From Candidatus Kryptoniota bacterium (GTDB lineage Bacteria; Bacteroidota; Ignavibacteria; Kryptoniales; JAKASW01), in contig JAHECO010000016.1 in assembly GCA_024641705.1 (NCBI GenBank), positions 1 through 64,000 of the forward strand: 64,000 nt of DNA. The letters are read 5' to 3'. Position numbers and translations under genes: made by a program. This document shows positions 4,384-25,848 of this stretch, piece by piece. Numbering within the stretch: the first letter of the stretch is position 1; each line of letters starts with the position of its first letter. The notes under the pieces are model-generated. The model did not search any database. It was given only the letters and a program-made list of their open reading frames with translations, and had not been told where the DNA came from.

Positions 4384-7300
4384 TTACAACTCTTCCTGTT
4401 TCAACTCACGCCGGAATGTCTCTTCGAATATCGTATAGAGCGTGGGTATGAATATGAGCGTAAGGAATGTGGATACAGTCAATCCGCCGATGACGGCAAT
4501 TGCCAGGGGTGCCTCCGACCTGTCACCGCCCATCCCGAGTGCCATGGGAATGAGTCCGACGACTGTGGCGAAGGAAGTCATCAGGATCGGGCGGAGCCTG
4601 GTTCGGCCTCCGAGCAAAACTGCCGCGTGCAGTTCCATGCCGGTCTTCCTCAGACGATTGATATAGTCGATGAGCAAGATCCCGTTTGATACGACGATGC
4701 CCACCATGACTATGACTCCTTCGAATGAGGTAACGGAGAGCGTCGTGTTTGTGAGGAATAGAGCCCATACCACGCCGGCCATGCCGAGCGGTATCGTAAA
4801 CATGATGATGAAAGGATCGACAAGGGATTGGAACTGCGATGCCATGACCATATAAACGAGTATGATGGCAAGTACAAGCGCCAGGAGGAGCGCCGCGAAC
4901 GTGCTCTTCTGCTGCTCGATATTGCCGCTCTGAACTATCTGGAATCCGGACGGCACTGAGAGGTGATTCAGCCGGCTTTGTATGTCTGAGGTGACACTGC
5001 CCAGGTCCCTGCCGGTGACGTTGGCAGTGACGTCGATAATGCGCTGCTGGTACTTGCGGTCAATCTCGACAGGCGTGTTCGTCATCTCTATGTCAGCGAT
5101 GTTGCCGAGCTTCACAAGCTGGCCCGAGCTGCTCGGGACTGTAAGCTGGCGGATGTCGTCGATTCTGTTGCGGTCGCTTTCCTGTAAGCGAACGAGAATG
5201 TTGAACTGGTTGCCGGTCTTCGGATCGGTGAACTGTGATGCCACGGTACCGTCGATCGCGGTCGCCACAGTATTTGCGATATCCGCGACGTTCACGCCGA
5301 GAGCGCCTGCTTTCTCCCTGTCTACCACGACTTTGAGTTGCGGCATATTGGGATCCATGCTTATCTGTGCGTCCGTTGCGCCTGGGGTGGTGCGGACGAT
5401 GTCATAAACCTTGTTAGCCAGATCCTCAGCCGTCGGGATGTCGTATCCCATTATCTGCACGTCGATGGGTGCTGAGGAACCGAAGTTGAGGAGGAAATGG
5501 AGGAACCCACCCGGGCTGAGAAATATCTTTGCCCCTGGAAGGGAAAGGAGCTTCGGCCTCAGTTCGTCGACGATCTGGTCCTGTGACCGGTTTCTGTCGG
5601 TGGGCGGCACGAGCTGCACCTGAATATTTGCGGCATACGTGCCGGGGTTTCGGCTGAATAGATTGCCGCTCTTCTGGGAGGGGACGCCGAGGTCGGCAAT
5701 GATGGCTTTTGTTTCAGGTACGTTTGCCTTTATTATCCCTTCCACGTTCTCGACATACTTCTCCGTCTCCTCGATGCGCGTCCCGACTGCCAACTTGACG
5801 CTCACTGAAAATTGGCTTTCGTCGCTGTCCGGGAAAAATTCCGTCCCCACAAACTTAAAGAGGGCGAAAGACGCCACCGCAAAGAATGCTACGGAAACGA
5901 TCACCTGCCACTTGTGTTTGAAGGTGTAGGCGATCGTCTTCTGATAGTACTCGTCCACTGTGTCAAAAAATTTCTTCGAGCTCAACTTCACACGATCCCA
6001 GTAGTTTGTCGTGTTGGGGTCGATTTCCTTTTCGGGCGTGAGGATGCGGTAACAGAGAAGCGGAGTGACACTCCTGGAGACAAAGAAGGAGGCGAACAGG
6101 GCCACCGTGATCGTCAGGACCAACGGCAGGAATAACAGCTTTGCAATTCCCGTGACGAAGAGAACCGGGAGGAAGACTATCACAGTTGTCAGAGTCGAGA
6201 TGAATATGGGGCCGGCGACTTCGAGAGCAGCATCTAGAGTTGCCTGCATCCTCGAGACGTTGGTCCTCTCCATCAGGCTGTAGTGCCTGGAAATGTTCTC
6301 CAGCTCAACGATCGAATCGTCGACAAGACGTCCTACGCCGAGCGCCAACCCTCCCAGAGTCATGATGTTAAGCGAAGTGGCGCTGAACCTGAAGTAAACG
6401 AAAGCGACGAGAATCGAAAGGGGAATCGCCACGAATATCACGATCGCACTCTTCACATCCCTGAGGAAGAGCAGGATTACGATCACGGCCAGGAGTCCGC
6501 CGAGCGCCGCCTCCTGCTCCAGACCGCTGATGGAGTCTCTGATATAAGTGCTCTGGTCAAAAGCGATGGATGATCTCACCGACTTCGGGACTCCGTCGAG
6601 CCTGGGGAGCTCCTTCATGATCTCGTTCACGACCTGCACTGTATTTGCATCGGGCGATTTTTGCACCCTGAGCACAACGCCGTTCTTGCCATTCACCCGT
6701 ATGAGCTCGGACTGCTCCTGGTACGAATCTTCGACCGTCCCGATGTCCTTTATGCGGATCGGCACCCCCTTTACGACTTTGACGATGATATTGTCCATCG
6801 GCTGGACAAGATTGAATTGCGTATCGGTTGTCAGGGAGTAGTCGAACACACCCGTTTTGAGGTCGCCGGACGGAATGATAAGATTAGAGTTCGCGACTGC
6901 TTGGGTAACCGCGGTTATCGGGATGCCTAGCGCGTCAAGCCTGTGCCTGTCCACGACGACATGGATCTCTCTTATCCTGCCGCCACTCACCCCGGCCTGC
7001 GCGACGCCCGGAAGATGCTCGAGCTGTGGTTCTATAACGTTGTATGCGAGGTCGTATAGCTTCCGCTGTCCCATATCGCTGCTGAGTACCACGGTGCAGA
7101 CGGGGAGGTTCGATAAGTCGAACTGAAGGGCGATCGGCTGGGACACCCCGGGCGGTAGAAGATTATACGCTCTGTTGATTTTTTGTATTACATCGACCAG
7201 GCCGACGTCGGTGTTCGCGCCCCAGTTGAAAAAAATGAAGATCTGGGAGACACCTTCTCGCGTGCGTGATTGCACGTAATTGACATCGTTCGTGCTGCTG

Positions 7301-7512
7301 ACGGCTCTCTCCAGTGGAACGGTGATCGTCTGCTCCATATCCGTCGGAGCGGCGCCGTTGTAAAACGTGATAACTGAGACGACCGGTATCTGGATGTTCG
7401 GAAGCATATCGATCGGCAGCTGGAGGAACGATACAATTCCGAGTACGAATATGGCTAACGACCCCATCAGTGTAGAGATAGGGTATTTGAGTGCAAGGCG
7501 GGTTATCCACAT
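4384..7512 (-). CDS. RND-family efflux pump, inner-membrane permease (HAE1/AcrB type)
   Basis: This inner-membrane proton-driven transporter exports hydrophobic or amphiphilic compounds as a trimer with a periplasmic adaptor. The 1042 residues match the usual length. They start with the first membrane helix, followed by the porter-domain FYNGAAPTDMEQTI block. The TM4 proton-relay aspartates are present in GRLVDDSIVELEN (Asp398-Asp399). The TM10 lysine of E. coli AcrB is not conserved; the segment reads GIVVSNGILLIDYIN, as in many AcrB-like pumps outside the enterobacterial group. The start lies four bases after the adaptor stop. It is the last gene of a sigma/anti-sigma/Spy/adaptor/pump unit. 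The substrate is unknown and no TolC-type channel is encoded in the window. Confidence 0.93.
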   Translation of the reverse strand: MWITRLALKYPISTLMGSLAIFVLGIVSFLQLPIDMLPNIQIPVVSVITFYNGAAPTDMEQTITVPLERAVSSTNDVNYVQSRTREGVSQIFIFFNWGANTDVGLVDVIQKINRAYNLLPPGVSQPIALQFDLSNLPVCTVVLSSDMGQRKLYDLAYNVIEPQLEHLPGVAQAGVSGGRIREIHVVVDRHRLDALGIPITAVTQAVANSNLIIPSGDLKTGVFDYSLTTDTQFNLVQPMDNIIVKVVKGVPIRIKDIGTVEDSYQEQSELIRVNGKNGVVLRVQKSPDANTVQVVNEIMKELPRLDGVPKSVRSSIAFDQSTYIRDSISGLEQEAALGGLLAVIVILLFLRDVKSAIVIFVAIPLSILVAFVYFRFSATSLNIMTLGGLALGVGRLVDDSIVELENISRHYSLMERTNVSRMQATLDAALEVAGPIFISTLTTVIVFLPVLFVTGIAKLLFLPLVLTITVALFASFFVSRSVTPLLCYRILTPEKEIDPNTTNYWDRVKLSSKKFFDTVDEYYQKTIAYTFKHKWQVIVSVAFFAVASFALFKFVGTEFFPDSDESQFSVSVKLAVGTRIEETEKYVENVEGIIKANVPETKAIIADLGVPSQKSGNLFSRNPGTYAANIQVQLVPPTDRNRSQDQIVDELRPKLLSLPGAKIFLSPGGFLHFLLNFGSSAPIDVQIMGYDIPTAEDLANKVYDIVRTTPGATDAQISMDPNMPQLKVVVDREKAGALGVNVADIANTVATAIDGTVASQFTDPKTGNQFNILVRLQESDRNRIDDIRQLTVPSSSGQLVKLGNIADIEMTNTPVEIDRKYQQRIIDVTANVTGRDLGSVTSDIQSRLNHLSVPSGFQIVQSGNIEQQKSTFAALLLALVLAIILVYMVMASQFQSLVDPFIIMFTIPLGMAGVVWALFLTNTTLSVTSFEGVIVMVGIVVSNGILLIDYINRLRKTGMELHAAVLLGGRTRLRPILMTSFATVVGLIPMALGMGGDRSEAPLAIAVIGGLTVSTFLTLIFIPTLYTIFEETFRRELKQEEL

Positions 7513-7516
7513 ATGG

Positions 7517-8632
7517 TTATCTCGTCACCCTTACTTTCATTCCGTCGTTCACGAGGTCCTGCCCCAGAAAGACTATCTCATCATTGCGGGATATCCCCGA
7601 AAGGATTTCATCCCTGTTGTCCTGGGCAATACCGACTTTCACGTAGGACTTGTGGACCGTGTTGTCCTTCGTGACCGTGTAGACGTAATAACCCGAGTCG
7701 TCTCTCATGATGACCTGGGAGGGGAGTATCACGGCATTATCGGCTTTGGCAATGAGGAGATTCACCGTTGCGTACATGCCAGGCTTCAGGAGCCTCTGAG
7801 GATTGTCGACGTCGACCTCCACAGGCATCGTCCTGGTGGCGAGGTCAAGCTGCTGACTGACTCTCGTTATTCTGCCGTGAAAGACCTGATCGGGGTAAGC
7901 ATCTACGACGATCTCGGCGTCTTTGATTTTTCCGATAAGGGGGACGTCTCTTTCGAGAAGATCCACCATGATCTTCACCTTGCTTATGTCCGCGAGGTAG
8001 AAGAGGGTAGAGGTCTGGGAGTTTGTCGATGCAGTTACGTATGTGCCGGGATCGAAAAACCGTCTCGTTACAAATCCTGAAAACGGCGCGGTTATCCTGC
8101 AGTACCCCAGCTGCGTAACTGCGTTCCTGTAATTTGCAGAGGCGGCTTCCGCCTGGGCACCGGCGACCTTGTAGGCAGTCTCCGCGTTATCGAGGTCCTG
8201 TTTGGCTATGAGGTTCTGTTCCAGAAGACTCTTGTCGCGCTCGTAAATCAACTTTGAGTTGGCAAGGGTAGCCTGTGCCTGCAGGAAAGCTGCCCTCGCC
8301 TGGCGTGCATTCTCAGCATAGACGGTCGTGTCGATGAGAGCCAGGATCTGCCCCTCCCGCACATAGTCGCCGATGTCGACAAACTCCTTCTCGATGTTTC
8401 CATTCACCCTCGGAAAAATGCTCGACTCCTGGATGGCAGCTATGTCGCCGGAGAATGTAAGCGTTCTTGAGATTGTGCCGACCTGTGCCTGCGAAACCTG
8501 TACGGAGGGAACCGGTCGCGTAACTTTGGCGGCTTCTTCGGCATTCGACCTTACCCTCATGTAAATCAACAGAGCCAGCAATACTATCACGCCGGCGGAA
8601 AAAATATAAACCCGCTTTTGATTCTTACTCAT
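7517..8632 (-). CDS. RND efflux periplasmic adaptor subunit (membrane fusion protein)
   Basis: The adaptor links the inner-membrane pump to an outer-membrane channel. The 371-residue protein has an uncleaved-looking N-terminal helix (about residues 8-26) and no lipobox. The usual order follows: a lipoyl half-motif (VNGNIEKEFVDIGDYVREGQ), an alpha hairpin of about 80 residues, the second lipoyl half around CRITAPFSGFVTRRFFDPG, a beta barrel, and a membrane-proximal domain ending in VRVTR. It is encoded immediately upstream of the pump (4-base gap) and eight bases after the Spy-like gene, so all are probably translated from one mRNA. Confidence 0.93.
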   Translation of the reverse strand: MSKNQKRVYIFSAGVIVLLALLIYMRVRSNAEEAAKVTRPVPSVQVSQAQVGTISRTLTFSGDIAAIQESSIFPRVNGNIEKEFVDIGDYVREGQILALIDTTVYAENARQARAAFLQAQATLANSKLIYERDKSLLEQNLIAKQDLDNAETAYKVAGAQAEAASANYRNAVTQLGYCRITAPFSGFVTRRFFDPGTYVTASTNSQTSTLFYLADISKVKIMVDLLERDVPLIGKIKDAEIVVDAYPDQVFHGRITRVSQQLDLATRTMPVEVDVDNPQRLLKPGMYATVNLLIAKADNAVILPSQVIMRDDSGYYVYTVTKDNTVHKSYVKVGIAQDNRDEILSGISRNDEIVFLGQDLVNDGMKVRVTR

Positions 8633-8640
8633 TCAATTTC

Positions 8641-9000
8641 CTACTGGTTGTCGTTTTCACGTTGCATCCTCCTGTCCAGCGAATCGAGTTTCACCTGCTG
8701 TCCGGGAGTGAGGATTGACCTGATCATCTTCTGCGTCGAGTCGACCTGGCTCTGCATGGATGTCTTGAAGTTTCTCCGGATGGCCTGGAATTTCGGATGA
8801 ACGAATGTGATTATCGAATCCAATTGTTTCTGCTGGGTCTGTGACAGACCAAGCTGCTGCGTCATAAAACTCACGAACCTGGCTTTACCGAAGTGGGCGT
8901 CGGTCGGCTGGAAATAGAAGTGATCTATCGCGAAGCCGGCTACACCGCCGATGACCAGTGAAACGATCACGGTCATCAAGAGAGTTCTTTTCGTTACCAC
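8641..9000 (-). CDS. Spy/CpxP-like periplasmic protein
   Basis: A 119-residue protein with one N-terminal hydrophobic segment (residues 7-25) followed by an all-helical region. It carries two LTXXQ-type motifs, LSQTQQ and LTPGQQ, typical of the Spy/CpxP/heavy-metal-sensor family. Such proteins act as periplasmic chaperones or dampen envelope-stress signalling. The GTG start directly abuts the anti-sigma stop codon and has AAGGAG eight bases upstream. Its place between an anti-sigma factor and an efflux pump suggests a sensing or feedback role, which is inference. The short C-terminus is highly charged. Confidence 0.8.
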   Translation of the reverse strand: MVTKRTLLMTVIVSLVIGGVAGFAIDHFYFQPTDAHFGKARFVSFMTQQLGLSQTQQKQLDSIITFVHPKFQAIRRNFKTSMQSQVDSTQKMIRSILTPGQQVKLDSLDRRMQRENDNQ

Positions 9001-9447
9001 TTATTTGCTCCTTACCACAAGTTCGAGTACCTGGTCGTTGGAGAGGTTGGATTGCTCGAGAGAACTTTTTTCGATGTTCGTCAGCCTGCCCGCCATTTCC
9101 ACCGGGTTTACTTTCGGCTTGTGGAACAGTTGAAGAGATATCAGGAGAATTACAATGAGGGTGGCAAGACTGATGATTATATCCTCGAGCGCCAGGCGGA
9201 ATTCACCTGCAGGGGACTCCGACTTCTGATTTCTGAACCGCGTGATGATGCCGTAATTGAAACGCTCATCCAGCGGGACCATGAAAGAGTCGTTGATCAC
9301 GCCTCTGAGTGACAGCATCGACTCCAATTCGCTTCTACATGCGACGCACGTCGCGATGTGATGTTCGAATTCAGCTCGTGCATCGGTGGAGAGCTCGTCG
9401 TGCGCGTAGGAATCGACATAGACGGTGTAGCGGCAGCTATTTCCCAT
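9001..9447 (-). CDS. Zinc-binding anti-sigma factor (ZAS / zf-HC2 type)
   Basis: This membrane-anchored anti-sigma factor is predicted to hold the adjacent ECF sigma factor inactive. The N-terminal 40 residues contain the HX3CX2C signature (HIATCVAC). A single membrane helix lies at about residues 89-107 (DIIISLATLIVILLISLQLF), followed by a periplasmic tail of about 40 residues. The gene overlaps the sigma gene by 11 bp, the usual translationally coupled arrangement for such pairs. The tail is a plausible sensor, with the Spy-like product as a possible partner; that link is inference. Confidence 0.88.
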   Translation of the reverse strand: MGNSCRYTVYVDSYAHDELSTDARAEFEHHIATCVACRSELESMLSLRGVINDSFMVPLDERFNYGIITRFRNQKSESPAGEFRLALEDIIISLATLIVILLISLQLFHKPKVNPVEMAGRLTNIEKSSLEQSNLSNDQVLELVVRSK

Positions 9448-20182: not shown

Positions 20183-20786
20183 CCTGCCGAAGGTTTCACG
20201 TCTCGGCCTTGCGCTTGCCGTAATTTTCGTCATTGCTCCAATAAGAGGTGAAGCCCAGGTCCACGCAGCAGCAGGTACAACCAACAGCACGCTCGATCTT
20301 CGACAGGCCCTGGGAATCCGGTCCGTTGCATTCGACTCTTCAGGTATGCCTCCGGCTGAATTTGCCGATACTTCAGCGTATATCCGGCAGCAGAAATCAC
20401 CTCTGGCGGCCGTTCTCTTTTCAATTATCCCTGGAGGGGGACAGATCTACAACGGGAGTTATTGGAAGGTGCCGATTGTCTGGGGAATTCAGGGTTATTT
20501 CGTCTCGCAGTGGATAGCGAACAACAAAGAGTACAAGTCCTTCCAGTCCCAGTACTCGAAGTCGATCACTTCTTCAAATCCTACTGGTGACGCGACGACC
20601 AAAGGATTGCGCGACACTTACCTTAGCCAGCGCGACTCTTACACGTGGTACATTGCCGGCACGTATCTTCTCTCAATTCTTGACGCTTACGTCGATGCTG
20701 AATTGTCCGGTTTCGACGTGTCCCCAAATCTCGGTTCGACAGGCTCAGGAAAGACTTTTGCCCTCGCCTTCCGAATGAAGTTCTGA
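20169..20786 (+). CDS. DUF5683 domain-containing protein
   Basis: A protein of about 205 residues with a hydrophobic N-terminal signal-like segment (residues 10-25). The DUF5683 core follows: QQKSPLAAVLFSIIPGGGQIYNGSYWKVPIVWG, described here as a signature spanning about residues 73-105, then two more hydrophobic segments. DUF5683 proteins are small membrane proteins common in Bacteroidota and often lie beside parAB; the role is unknown. The TTG at 20169 overlaps the end of ridA by 14 bp. The last 42 bases overlap, tail to tail, the convergent symporter gene. Confidence 0.8.
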   Translation: MPGSNLPKVSRLGLALAVIFVIAPIRGEAQVHAAAGTTNSTLDLRQALGIRSVAFDSSGMPPAEFADTSAYIRQQKSPLAAVLFSIIPGGGQIYNGSYWKVPIVWGIQGYFVSQWIANNKEYKSFQSQYSKSITSSNPTGDATTKGLRDTYLSQRDSYTWYIAGTYLLSILDAYVDAELSGFDVSPNLGSTGSGKTFALAFRMKF

Positions 20787-22235
20787 CTTCAGCCTCTCCG
20801 TCGCGTCAGCGCCGGCTAAGCCTCTCAACTTCTCGAAGATTCCCGCCAAATAGAAAACCACCGATAGGGATAGGCCCGGATACATCGGCTGGATACCGAG
20901 CGGGTATTGGGGATTCATCGTGCCGCCCGCAATTACTCCCGACAACAACCACGCCAGGGACACTGTCCATCCGAAGGTCATCGAGAGAAAAATATATTTA
21001 CGATCCGCTCTTAGTTTTGGGAAATAGCTCGACATAAGCGGTATGAGAAGCCCCGGTATGAAGACCGTTCCGAGGTCGTACCAGATTTGAATGATCGACG
21101 GGATAAGCAGTGCAATTGCGATCGATATCAGGGCGGTGAGAAAAATCCCGACCTGTGAGTACCGCATGATCCGCCGATGCGATTCGGGCTCGCTTTCGTG
21201 GCGCCGTAACATTCTGAAAAGAATGTCTTTGCCAATGGTTACGGCCGATATGAAGGTCAGGCTTTCAAGGCTCGACATGATTGTCGCCAGAAGCCCCACA
21301 TAGAATAATCCCTTGATGAAGGCGGGAAGCACCATTTCGGCGAGTGCCGGGTAGGACATGGCCGGATGTGCAAGGTGAGGAAGCAGGGCCCTCGCGTAGA
21401 GTCCTGTCACCGAGGTCATGAAATCAAAGAATAACCAAAAGAGTATCGAAAGAAGGATACCGTATCTAGCGACGGATCCTGACTTTGCGGCGTAACATCG
21501 CTGATGAAAAGCTGGATCGATCAACGTCCAACTTGCTATGAAGAACCATGCGATAATATACTGCCAGGAGTTTCCGCCCGTCAGTGTCAAATGACCCGGT
21601 GGAACGTGTGAGTTGATGAATGAGAGACCGCCGTAGTTCAGGTAACAGAAGGGAAGGATCACGCCGAAACCGATGTACATCATTACGAATTCAAAGGCGT
21701 TGGTCTTGACGTCTGAGTGAAGCCCGCCGGAATAGAGATACGCTATCGAAACCGCCGTGGCAAAGACGACTGACAGTACCAACGACCAACCGAAGAGCAT
21801 CTCGACGATTATTCCCACCATGAGAACGTAGGGAGCTGGTGTGACGATGAAGAGAGTGAGAAAAGAACCCATGTTAGCGGTGCGGTCTCCGTAGGTTTCC
21901 CTGAGCTTATCGGGAATCGTGTGGAGTTTAGCTTTATGGATTCTCGGCGCCAGGAATACCGCGAATATTACCGCAAAGACATAGTAAGGCACGCCGAAGA
22001 TGAACCAGTTAGATATGCCGTACCTGTATGAGAACTCACCGACGCCAAGTATGCCTCCATACCACGTCGACACCAGCGTCGCAATGAATACCGGCAGCGT
22101 GAGGCTCCTGCCGGCAACAAGGTATTCATCAAGATGACCGCGTGCCTTCCTCGCGGCGCGAAACCCGACAAAGACGACGGCTGAGAAATACACGACTATA
22201 ACGAGCCAATCCGTCAGAGCAAGTTTTACGGTCAT
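20745..22235 (-). CDS. Sodium:solute symporter, candidate thiamine or thiamine-precursor transporter
   Basis: A 496-residue SSS-family inner-membrane transporter with about 13 hydrophobic segments, starting LALTDWLVIVVYFSAVVFVG. The family's DEYLVAGRSL and STWYGG blocks are near the N-terminus, and MSSLESLTFISAVTIGKDI lies in TM8/9. It is the third gene of an operon headed by a TPP riboswitch and overlaps the thiamine pyrophosphokinase stop by four bases. In Bacteroidota this slot usually holds PnuT. Predicted thiamine-regulon symporters of this family (ThiV) are known elsewhere, so uptake of thiamine or a precursor is the best inference. Its 3' end overlaps the DUF5683 gene by 42 bp. Confidence 0.85.
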   Translation of the reverse strand: MTVKLALTDWLVIVVYFSAVVFVGFRAARKARGHLDEYLVAGRSLTLPVFIATLVSTWYGGILGVGEFSYRYGISNWFIFGVPYYVFAVIFAVFLAPRIHKAKLHTIPDKLRETYGDRTANMGSFLTLFIVTPAPYVLMVGIIVEMLFGWSLVLSVVFATAVSIAYLYSGGLHSDVKTNAFEFVMMYIGFGVILPFCYLNYGGLSFINSHVPPGHLTLTGGNSWQYIIAWFFIASWTLIDPAFHQRCYAAKSGSVARYGILLSILFWLFFDFMTSVTGLYARALLPHLAHPAMSYPALAEMVLPAFIKGLFYVGLLATIMSSLESLTFISAVTIGKDILFRMLRRHESEPESHRRIMRYSQVGIFLTALISIAIALLIPSIIQIWYDLGTVFIPGLLIPLMSSYFPKLRADRKYIFLSMTFGWTVSLAWLLSGVIAGGTMNPQYPLGIQPMYPGLSLSVVFYLAGIFEKLRGLAGADATERLKSELHSEGEGKSLS

Positions 22236-22858
22236 ACGTCCTTTATCATAACGAGAAGGCCGCCTTCACGAACCACGATCCTGATATCTTCTGCCGCGGA
22301 ACGGTTGCTGACACCGTGACCGCCTTTCGGTAGCACCGCCTTGCTGAGCTCGAACTCCAGACCGTCGGTAGTGATGACCGTCTCGTCGACCATGGCAATG
22401 AGAGATACGGTCGTACCCAGCGGAATCCTCTCGCCGAGAGTCTCAGTCACAGGAAAGATCACGTACTCTTCGTCGGCCAGGACGATGTGACACTTCCTTG
22501 AATATTCGAAGGCGATGATGAGATTTGCCAGCGTGTGGTCGATCCTGCCGCCGGAGAACGCCGTTACAAGGAAGTTGTCCATCCCTCGATCCAGCATGAC
22601 ATCCAGGGTCTTCTCGAAATCCGTGTTCGCCTGCGAGGGGACTCTCACTATTTCAGAGGTCGGAGGTAAGTCTGTACGGTTATCGAGCGAGTCCAGGTCG
22701 CCGACGACAAGATTCGGGACGTAGCCGGTCAGCAGCGCCTTGTTGGCGCCGCCGTCGGCGCAGACAATACTAGCCGGCCGGCTGACAAGCCGTCGGAGTC
22801 TTGCCGCACTCGGGGGCTGGCCATTGCAAAAGACGAGCGAGAAATTGTCAAACTTCAT
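22232..22858 (-). CDS. Thiamine pyrophosphokinase
   Basis: This enzyme transfers pyrophosphate from ATP to thiamine, converting salvaged thiamine directly to TPP. The 208-residue protein shows CADGGANKAL, VVGDLDS, ANTDFEKTLDVML, the GGRIDHTLAN motif and a C-terminal domain with GVSNRS. These are the nucleotide- and thiamine-binding motifs of bacterial TPK. The start follows the receptor stop by four bases. It lies in the riboswitch-controlled operon between an outer-membrane receptor and an inner-membrane symporter, so import is followed by trapping as TPP. No thiC, thiE or thiD gene is present in the window, in keeping with salvage. Confidence 0.94.
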   Translation of the reverse strand: MKFDNFSLVFCNGQPPSAARLRRLVSRPASIVCADGGANKALLTGYVPNLVVGDLDSLDNRTDLPPTSEIVRVPSQANTDFEKTLDVMLDRGMDNFLVTAFSGGRIDHTLANLIIAFEYSRKCHIVLADEEYVIFPVTETLGERIPLGTTVSLIAMVDETVITTDGLEFELSKAVLPKGGHGVSNRSAAEDIRIVVREGGLLVMIKDV

Positions 22859-22862
22859 CTGC

Positions 22863-25406
22863 CTACAAGCCGACGGTGCAGCTCAAGAAGAAATTCCGTG
22901 TCGCAGCAGGGAAGAAGTAGACCCCTTCGCCGTGTGCGATGTACACACGGTTGAGCAGGTTATTCACATACAGTTTGAATTCAACAGAAGACATCGAGAA
23001 CAATTTTCTGAGCTTATACGAGACCCAGGCATTGACGACAAAATATGGGTCTATCATCCTGGATGCAAGATTGAAATTGTCCGTGTACTGGGATCCTGCG
23101 TACTGGCCAAGGAGAACGACCGACATGTCGCCCGCGGTATAAGAGCCCCTGATGTTTCCCATCAACTCCGGAAAACCGGATATCCTGTTTCCATCGAGCG
23201 ATATGCCGGAGGATGAAGTGTTCCCGAGGCTGTCCGTGTAGCTCGTGTACTCTATCAACCTGTTCCTGCTCAACGTGATATTCCCGTAGAGTGAGAAGTT
23301 GCGGGTGACCGATGCGCTCCCCTCGAGTTCCACGCCGATGTGGCGTGTGCGTTTTGCATTTCCGGTGATCGGCTGTCCGTACTGATCGAGGAGGCCGTTT
23401 GAGACGAGTTCATTATAGAACTCCATCCAATACGCGGTTACGCCTGCACGGAAGCGGTTGTTCGAAAAACGATAACCGAGTTCAAAGTCGTTTAATGTCT
23501 CCGGCTCCACGAGCGGACCGCCGAAGTTGTAGGTGCCGTCGCTGTTGAGGGCAAAGTGCGGAGCTTCACCACCGCTGGACTCGTCTGCATTATAGAGGCT
23601 CACTAGCCTGGGCTCACGTGATGTCCTGCTGACGCTGATGTAAGCGCTGGATGTGGGACTAATGTTGTAGTTTAGGCCGAGCCGGGGGTTGAAGAAATGA
23701 TACGGAACTACGAAGTGCGTCCCCACAAATTTCTCATCGAATAGGTCATACTGTTTGAATTGGTATTCTAAGTCGAGCATCAAAGTGGCCTGGGATGAGA
23801 GGTCGTAGAGCTCATGTCCGTAGAGAGCGGCAACGTCGGTCCGGGCCTGCCATTGGTTATAGCGGTATCCTGCCGGCACTCCCGGTGGTAGATCCTGTGC
23901 CCACCGGATGGTTGCCCAGTGATTGGAAACGTTCTGAGCGAGCTCTGCGCCGATTACGAGGCTGCCGTTGAGGTGGCGTATCGTGAGGCGTGGTATCCAT
24001 CCGTATTGTTTGAGACCGACGTAAGCGTGGATCAAAGCGTCACCCGGATTGCCTGTGGGATGAAAACCATACTCGGAGGTAATCCTGAAGTAACTGGTAT
24101 CTGCCCAAGAACCGTCATAGTCGTAGAAACCAGAACCGAGCACAAGGAAGAACGAATTGTTGAGAGTAAGGGCGGGGGAGAGCCTGATTTCGTTCAGGAG
24201 TTCGAAATGAGGCTGCGAGAAGTTTTCAATTTCCGAAGGTCTTCTCGGGACCGCGTAGACTGTATCCTTCCCATCAGACGATATGTATCTTGTCATATTA
24301 GGTGAGTAGTTGACCCAACTGCTGTCTGAATTCCAGTCATCCCAGTTGGAAGTTCTGAGATTCTTATCCAGAGCGGCGAATTTCGGGAGTCCCAGGTATG
24401 AGAGTCCATCTGAAATCGGGCCGCCGTACATGTTAACTGTAGTCGTCATGTTCGCGTCATACCTCGTCGCACTCAGGAAGTAACTGTTAAGGTCGACCCA
24501 GGAGCTCTGTCGGTAACCGTCGGTCATGTTCTTGGCAAGGTGGGCGTAGAATGTGTATTTGCCGTCGATCAGCCCCGAACCGAACGTCGCCGAGTAGCGT
24601 CGCGTCATACCGGTTCCAAAGAGACGGTCCGAAAGATTTCCATCCGGAGATTCACCGGTGGAGCCGGCACCGAAGGATAGGGTAAGTTGGCGCTCACTTC
24701 CGAGGTTTGTGGTCTCCACGTTAATTGAGCCGCCTATCGCCGGAGCCCCGTAGAATTCGTTTCCCGCACCGCGCTGTACCTGAACGATTTGAGTTGACGC
24801 CTGGAGGTCCGGCACGTCGATCCAGTATACGTTATGATCCTCAGGATCGTTCTGAGGAATACCGTTGATCATTATCGATATCCTGCGCTGGTCAAACCCG
24901 CGCATGGTTATGTATGAGTAGCCGATACCTTCGCCGTTTTCCGAATATTGTGTTATCGACGGAAGCTGCGACAGGAGGACAGGAATATCCTGAACGGCAT
25001 ACTGCTCTTTGATGGAACTGTTTGTGAGATTGCTGAACGTGACCGGCGAGCGTCTCGCCTGGGCGAACTGGGCAGTCACTAGAATAGGACGCAGCTGAAA
25101 CGTTCTTCTTTGCAGGGCCACAATGAAATGAGCTCCTGGTGCCTCATGTGTCACCGATGTGGTGGTGTATCCAGGTGCTTTCACCTCAAACCGATAAGAG
25201 CCAGGCCGAATGCCGGGAAACTCGAATGATCCATTTCCGTCTGTCAGTGTGCTGTCAGCACCCGGGAAGATTGTCACAACCGCCTGAGGAATCGGCAGGT
25301 TGTCGGTAGAGTCTATTATTGTACCCTTGACTGACACGGCTTGCTGGGCGCGAGCGTTCAGCCCCAGTCCAAGTAGCAAAGACAAGCTAAGTATTAAAGA
25401 CTTCAT
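22863..25406 (-). CDS. TonB-dependent outer-membrane receptor, probable thiamine uptake
   Basis: A gated beta-barrel receptor of 847 residues from the chosen start. It has a signal peptide (MKSLILSLSLLLGLGLNARA), then a carboxypeptidase-regulatory-like domain (about residues 24-105), a plug with DIPVLLSQLPSITQYSENGEG and QRGAGNEFYGAPAIGGSINVE, and a long C-terminal barrel. The ATG at 25406 is preferred because AGGAG lies seven to eight bases before it and the signal peptide starts there. An in-frame ATG at 25493 would add 29 residues and lies just behind the riboswitch. Thiamine as ligand is inferred from the TPP riboswitch and the downstream kinase, as in the OmpThi group. Confidence 0.9.
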   Translation of the reverse strand: MKSLILSLSLLLGLGLNARAQQAVSVKGTIIDSTDNLPIPQAVVTIFPGADSTLTDGNGSFEFPGIRPGSYRFEVKAPGYTTTSVTHEAPGAHFIVALQRRTFQLRPILVTAQFAQARRSPVTFSNLTNSSIKEQYAVQDIPVLLSQLPSITQYSENGEGIGYSYITMRGFDQRRISIMINGIPQNDPEDHNVYWIDVPDLQASTQIVQVQRGAGNEFYGAPAIGGSINVETTNLGSERQLTLSFGAGSTGESPDGNLSDRLFGTGMTRRYSATFGSGLIDGKYTFYAHLAKNMTDGYRQSSWVDLNSYFLSATRYDANMTTTVNMYGGPISDGLSYLGLPKFAALDKNLRTSNWDDWNSDSSWVNYSPNMTRYISSDGKDTVYAVPRRPSEIENFSQPHFELLNEIRLSPALTLNNSFFLVLGSGFYDYDGSWADTSYFRITSEYGFHPTGNPGDALIHAYVGLKQYGWIPRLTIRHLNGSLVIGAELAQNVSNHWATIRWAQDLPPGVPAGYRYNQWQARTDVAALYGHELYDLSSQATLMLDLEYQFKQYDLFDEKFVGTHFVVPYHFFNPRLGLNYNISPTSSAYISVSRTSREPRLVSLYNADESSGGEAPHFALNSDGTYNFGGPLVEPETLNDFELGYRFSNNRFRAGVTAYWMEFYNELVSNGLLDQYGQPITGNAKRTRHIGVELEGSASVTRNFSLYGNITLSRNRLIEYTSYTDSLGNTSSSGISLDGNRISGFPELMGNIRGSYTAGDMSVVLLGQYAGSQYTDNFNLASRMIDPYFVVNAWVSYKLRKLFSMSSVEFKLYVNNLLNRVYIAHGEGVYFFPAATRNFFLSCTVGL

Positions 25407-25427
25407 CACTTCTCCTAAAACTAATAA

Positions 25428-25480
25428 ACCGTTTCCGTTTCCGACGTGGGAAATATCCAACAGTCGAAAAGAGAAACGGT
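25428..25480 (-). terminator. Possible riboswitch expression-platform hairpin
   Basis: On the minus strand ACCGTTTC (25480-25473) can pair with GAAACGGT (25435-25428), with an inner CGAC/GTCG pairing, and is followed by TTTATTAGTTTT. It lies between the TPP aptamer and the receptor start, the right place for ligand-controlled termination. The loop is long, so this is tentative. Confidence 0.35.
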
Positions 25481-25494
25481 CTAAGAGAAGCATC

Positions 25495-25586
25495 GTCCAT
25501 TTTCCTCCGCTGGAATTACCCAGATCAGGTTCGTAGGGTTTTATCTCAGCCGTCCCATTTTCTCCGGGACAGCACCCCTAACGGAC
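25495..25586 (-). promoter_or_regulatory. TPP riboswitch (THI element)
   Basis: The minus strand carries the conserved TPP aptamer: GGGGTGC, GGCTGAGAT, ACCC, GAACCTGATCTGG and TAATTCCAGCGGAGGAAA, in the right order and spacing. The P1 helix can form between GTCCGTT (25586-25580) and AATGGAC (25501-25495). The promoter's -7 box ends four bases before P1, so the transcript should begin at the aptamer. It controls the receptor, thiamine pyrophosphokinase and symporter genes, presumably switching them off when TPP is plentiful. Confidence 0.96.
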
Positions 25587-25589
25587 AAA

Positions 25590-25620
25590 CGAATTTAACG
25601 TCTCATCGGACCCAAATCAA
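25590..25620 (-). promoter_or_regulatory. Promoter of the thiamine salvage operon
   Basis: TTG (25620-25618), 20 bases, TAAATTCG (25597-25590), placing the expected transcription start at the 5' strand of the riboswitch P1 helix. Confidence 0.6.
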
Positions 25621-25788: not shown

Positions 25789-25821
25789 AAAAAAGGCGGA
25801 GATGCCGGATGCACCTCCGCC
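25789..25821 (-). terminator. Rho-independent terminator of the Asp-box protein gene
   Basis: GGCGGAG (minus strand 25821-25815) pairs with CTCCGCC (25801-25795), with an inner TGC/GCA pairing, and is followed by six T residues. It lies 28 bases beyond the stop. Confidence 0.85.
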
Positions 25822-25848
25822 TGGCCCGCTCTCTATGAGCCGGCCTAC

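Follow-up and report, generated by a model that had tools for sequence, protein, structure and literature searches.

The window, that is, the whole 64,000-nucleotide stretch of DNA that was analysed, contains an operon that lies throughout on the minus strand, an orientation missing from the first-pass annotation. It begins with a TPP riboswitch aptamer (25485..25589; covariance model RF00059, 67.5 bits against a gathering cut-off of 54.3), followed by genes for a TonB-dependent outer-membrane receptor, predicted to be a thiamine receptor of the OMPthi type (22863..25406; PF00593 barrel, PF07715 plug and PF13620), a thiamine pyrophosphokinase (TPK; 22232..22858; TIGR01378 equivalog, 132 bits against a cut-off of 76, with PF04263 and PF04265), and a sodium symporter of the SSS family (20745..22235; PF00474, 92.8 bits against a cut-off of 22.8), a predicted thiamine transporter occupying the position of PnuT. 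This succession had been proposed from the letters of the DNA and was confirmed for all four elements, as were the 4-base gap between the receptor and TPK genes (22859-22862) and the 4-base overlap, ATGA, between those for TPK and the symporter. Mechanically, the open reading frame of the receptor starts at 25493; we preferred instead the ATG at 25406, because AGGAGAAG is found just upstream and the resulting N-terminus resembles a signal peptide. A strong terminator-like hairpin with 12 pairs and a T run (25794-25822, minus strand) is situated just past a large gene (29064-25849), between that gene and the thiamine operon.

In the minimum free energy (MFE) fold of the leader RNA, a strong hairpin (25408..25491, minus strand; z -5.0) appears immediately 3' of the aptamer, and is predicted to bury the ribosome-binding site (RBS) of the receptor gene, AGGAGAAG, which pairs there with CTTCTC. 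A similar pairing was predicted at the equivalent position of L041, L042, L044 and L049, and was less clear in the genus members L043, L045, L046 and L201. These folds suggest that the hairpin is likely the expression platform and acts on translation, such that the leader would permit translation of the receptor gene when TPP is low. Promoter scans gave matches at about the level of shuffled sequence.

In most studied Bacteroidota the inner-membrane step of thiamine uptake is taken by PnuT. The window operon shares the TPP riboswitch, the TonB receptor, the TPK and the presence of one inner-membrane protein with the OMthi-pnuT-tnr3 operon of gut Bacteroidetes, but this protein is PnuT (PF04973) in the latter and an SSS protein (PF00474), encoded by the third gene, in the window (PMC5613172). 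The host genome (4.6 Mb in 95 contigs, 100% complete), in which gene presence and absence were judged by family searches, contains two TPP riboswitches only, one of them that of the window operon. The other heads thiC, a 355-aa AIR-synthase/ThiL-like gene, thiD and thiE (L038, G000:C30:66000-82000, 5383-9401), where all names except thiC and thiE were read from the sequence. No gene in the whole genome matched PF04973 (PnuC/PnuT) above the cut-off, the sole match having 11 bits; hence, a genome-wide search for a PnuT gene under a TPP riboswitch of its own, named in the first-pass annotation as evidence against its reading, returned none. PnuT is absent from the host, which can synthesise the pyrimidine de novo, and uptake of thiamine may be non-essential for this host because it possesses ThiC, ThiD and ThiE. 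Across the genus, the capacity for de novo synthesis is unevenly distributed, with ThiC occurring in only 2 of the 13 sampled members (G000 and G124).

To evaluate the association of the symporter with thiamine genes, we compared the corresponding loci across relatives. TPK adjoins the symporter in all 30 loci comprising that of the window and its 29 nearest relatives, and 115 of 140 non-identical members of the symporter clade are TPK-linked. These members span Ignavibacteria, Kryptonia, Marinimicrobia, KSB1, Calditrichota and Armatimonadota, and the clade is split from the other SSS proteins of the host genome at 100% SH-aLRT. Of the receptor-TPK-SSS loci whose upstream sequence is complete, 80 out of 80 have a TPP riboswitch there, as against only one of 25 TPK-SSS pairs without a receptor, in counts that include some genomes present in two collections. 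The constant adjacency of TPK in the 30 loci, together with the riboswitch in 80 out of 80, indicates that the linkage is not due to chance. Additionally, the riboswitch follows the receptor gene and not the transporter. Pairs of TPK and SSS genes with neither a TonB receptor nor a detectable TPP riboswitch were seen in L149-L153, L188, L191-L194, L196 and L203.

The first-pass annotation had named, as a check, a search of related genomes for the symporter together with absence of PnuT, and the two largely coincided. Among 245 genomes of the host's class, the symporter (counted at E <= 1e-30) occurred in 186 and PF04973 above cut-off in 19, with both in only two (Fisher 5e-10). Likewise, ThiC was present in 35 genomes, three of them with the symporter (2e-20), and PF02581 (ThiE/TenI) in 52, including 17 with the symporter; since these genomes are mostly drafts, related and non-independent, the Fisher values overstate significance and are indicative only. 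The 59 class genomes devoid of the symporter comprised 32 with ThiC, 17 with a PF04973 gene and ten with neither. Only four PF04973 genes, all from family f17, were counted as PnuT; those outside f17 were neither beside TPK nor under a TPP riboswitch and were not counted.

Family f17 allows a direct comparison of the two transporters within the same operon. In four of its genomes (L125-L128) the gene after TPK is pnuT, and the three loci that are complete also have the receptor upstream, whereas other f17 genera contain the receptor-TPK-SSS arrangement. A TPP riboswitch was detected in all three complete PnuT loci; its match was strong in L127 but weaker in the other two, L126 and L128. In L127, moreover, the kinase and pnuT genes overlap by 4 bases, as do the kinase and symporter genes of the window operon. 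The window receptor is homologous to those of PnuT operons. In the receptor tree, five f17-type receptors form a single clade (100/96), in which the pair from SSS operons is nested among those from PnuT operons, being sister to two of them. This mixed clade indicates that the receptor persisted through an exchange of the inner-membrane gene, in one direction or the other. The receptor of L173, an SSS operon also from f17, fell outside this clade; the kinase tree was poorly resolved and adds nothing to the argument for a swap. The exchange gives direct comparative support to the initial proposal that a different transporter superfamily takes the inner-membrane step, and we consider it very probable, and well supported by comparison, that the symporter carries thiamine as a non-orthologous replacement of PnuT.

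The AlphaFold2 model of the symporter (mean pLDDT 79.7, pTM 0.80) matched CHT1, SGLT1/2, NIS and SiaT at Z of about 29-33, indicating an SSS-type fold, with CHT1 (Z 33) and SGLT structures as the closest. By profile, the best solved relative was also a choline transporter chain of the SLC5A7 type (3e-25; human CHT1, 3e-13). The pocket residues were assigned by profile-based alignment between distantly related proteins, and not from a residue-level superposition. In the alignment with human CHT1, Trp58, Tyr84 and Trp385 correspond to the cage residues W62, Y91 and W406, but the position of CHT1 W254 is taken by Asp240, an Asp in 144 out of 144 TPK-linked members, and that of Trp141 by Thr/Ser. 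Ser321 and Ser322 align, in the same alignment, to the Na2 ligands S346 and S347 on TM8; among the 144 members, the first is mostly Ser (Ala in 15) and the second Thr/Ser, so that Na+ coupling at the Na2 site is likely. Conversely, the Na3 positions, D188 and D349 in CHT1, are N/D and variable in the symporter family and, as far as the alignment goes, this second Na+ site is not conserved. Choline and thiamine both possess a quaternary nitrogen, which makes an aromatic cage plausible for the symporter.

According to the first-pass annotation, homologues outside any thiamine context would contradict a role in thiamine transport. Such homologues do exist in other families, although they are altered at positions aligned with the pocket. 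Sampled symporters of families f15, f19 and f25 precede a gene for a CDP-alcohol phosphatidyltransferase (directly in L170, L174 and L182) and contain Ile or Leu at the position of Trp385, which aligns to the choline cage. Those from f3 (L144-L148) and f20 (L186) stand alone, in genomes without ThiC, and have Asp240 replaced by Ala or Ser and Arg246 by Phe. These substitutions suggest that lineages outside thiamine operons may carry something else, through a possible change of cargo. The nearest plasmid-borne symporters were 25-30% identical to that of the window, and no thiamine genes were found beside them at the four loci inspected, two of which were near agmatinase genes.

The first-pass annotation set the arrangement against the well-known one of Bacteroidota and missed that the same gene set had been published in 2017 for Caldithrix abyssi. 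The relevant passages of that genome paper place a TPP riboswitch, a TonB receptor, a sodium-solute symporter and a thiamin pyrophosphokinase in one locus, Cabys_3975-3977, with the riboswitch upstream of the receptor as in the window operon; they assign thiamine transport to the receptor, leave the role of the symporter undiscussed and contain no comparison with PnuT (PMC5317091). C. abyssi belongs to a different phylum, and our literature searches found no description of the arrangement in Bacteroidota, the Caldithrix paper being the one match. The arrangement is, therefore, already known, and what is new is its breadth, its exclusion of PnuT-family genes and of ThiC, the swap within the operon and the prediction of the pocket. 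SSS proteins have also been associated with vitamin B1 elsewhere: knock-out of a diatom SSSP abolished thiamine uptake (PMC9544697), and ThiV is listed among the B1 transporters of gut genomes (PMC6593275). The ThiV/SSSP proteins of SAR11, Methylobacillus and algae share with the window symporter the SSS family, a TPP riboswitch, in our case as third gene of a riboswitch operon, a link to uptake of B1 or its precursors and a Phe-His pair in the TM6 region; unlike in the window operon, the passages describing them mention neither a TonB receptor nor a TPK partner (PMC11452348, PMC4260697, PMC9544697). With respect to the ThiV signature (Tyr78, Asp139 and Phe254-His, SiaT numbering), the window symporter has a Phe-His pair at Phe243-His244, and no Asp is seen in its TM3 stretch 123-142, which was matched to SiaT at less than residue level.

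These similarities bear on the identity of the cargo. The symporter could import the pyrimidine precursor HMP, or aminomethyl-pyrimidine, and belong to the operon only through shared TPP control, as suggested by the apparent transport of HMP by the TPP-regulated ThiV of SAR11 (PMC11452348) and by the resemblance of Phe243-His244 to the Phe-His signature of HMP/thiamin symporters. However, within the families whose sampled members are TPK-linked, 139 genomes contain the symporter and 136 TPK, whereas in 122 of the 139 ThiC is missing, as is any PF02581 gene that could couple pyrimidine and thiazole; an imported pyrimidine precursor would thus be unusable by the known route, while TPK can use free thiamine. 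This strengthens the argument, already made in the first-pass annotation, that a precursor would be no substrate for the kinase. Furthermore, the partner kinase acts on thiamine, relatives have PnuT in the same operon slot and ThiC is encoded in the host genome itself. We consequently regard a role as HMP carrier as improbable and set it aside, most host genomes being without ThiC and ThiE; the cargo is likely thiamine, as judged from gene content.

Alternatively, the symporter might carry another B1 vitamer or a breakdown product, such as thiamine monophosphate or oxidised thiamine, and the replacement of a cage Trp by the invariant Asp240 implies that the pocket is no plain copy of the choline site. 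We deem this very improbable, because TPK needs free thiamine and phosphate esters would require a phosphatase, none of which is encoded in the operon. That the protein is no vitamin transporter at all, but adjoins TPK by chance or carries solutes in general, could be argued from the members of the wider clade that stand alone or beside a CDP-alcohol phosphatidyltransferase gene; nevertheless, the persistence of the TPK-SSS linkage over six groups, from Ignavibacteria to Armatimonadota, and the exclusion with PnuT-family genes and ThiC make this extremely improbable.

Taken together, the comparisons give us high confidence that the operon would serve thiamine salvage under TPP control, with the symporter substituting for PnuT. 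In the proposed pathway, the TonB receptor, from its family and operon, would move thiamine across the outer membrane and the symporter would import it, as free thiamine and together with Na+, through the inner membrane, whereupon TPK, by its family assignment, would convert it to TPP, trapping the vitamin and closing the feedback on the riboswitch. PnuT is a facilitator, and accumulation through it depends on the kinase; the SSS version, unlike PnuT, should concentrate thiamine actively.

With less assurance, we favor the broader proposal that members of the TPK-linked SSS clade are symporters dedicated to free thiamine, coupled to Na+ and interchangeable with PnuT, and that their cargo site is an aromatic cage of the choline type in which Asp replaces one Trp. 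They would then constitute the main entry of thiamine into B1-auxotrophic Ignavibacteria and their relatives, perhaps including Bacteroidota reported to have no known B1 transporters. For several Bacteroidota clusters, a coastal survey detected no described system of B1 synthesis or transport (PMC10881298). The symporter family is a candidate to fill such a gap. PnuT and the sodium symporter would represent a clean pair of interchangeable transporters in an otherwise unchanged operon, widening thiamine uptake in the phylum beyond PnuT.
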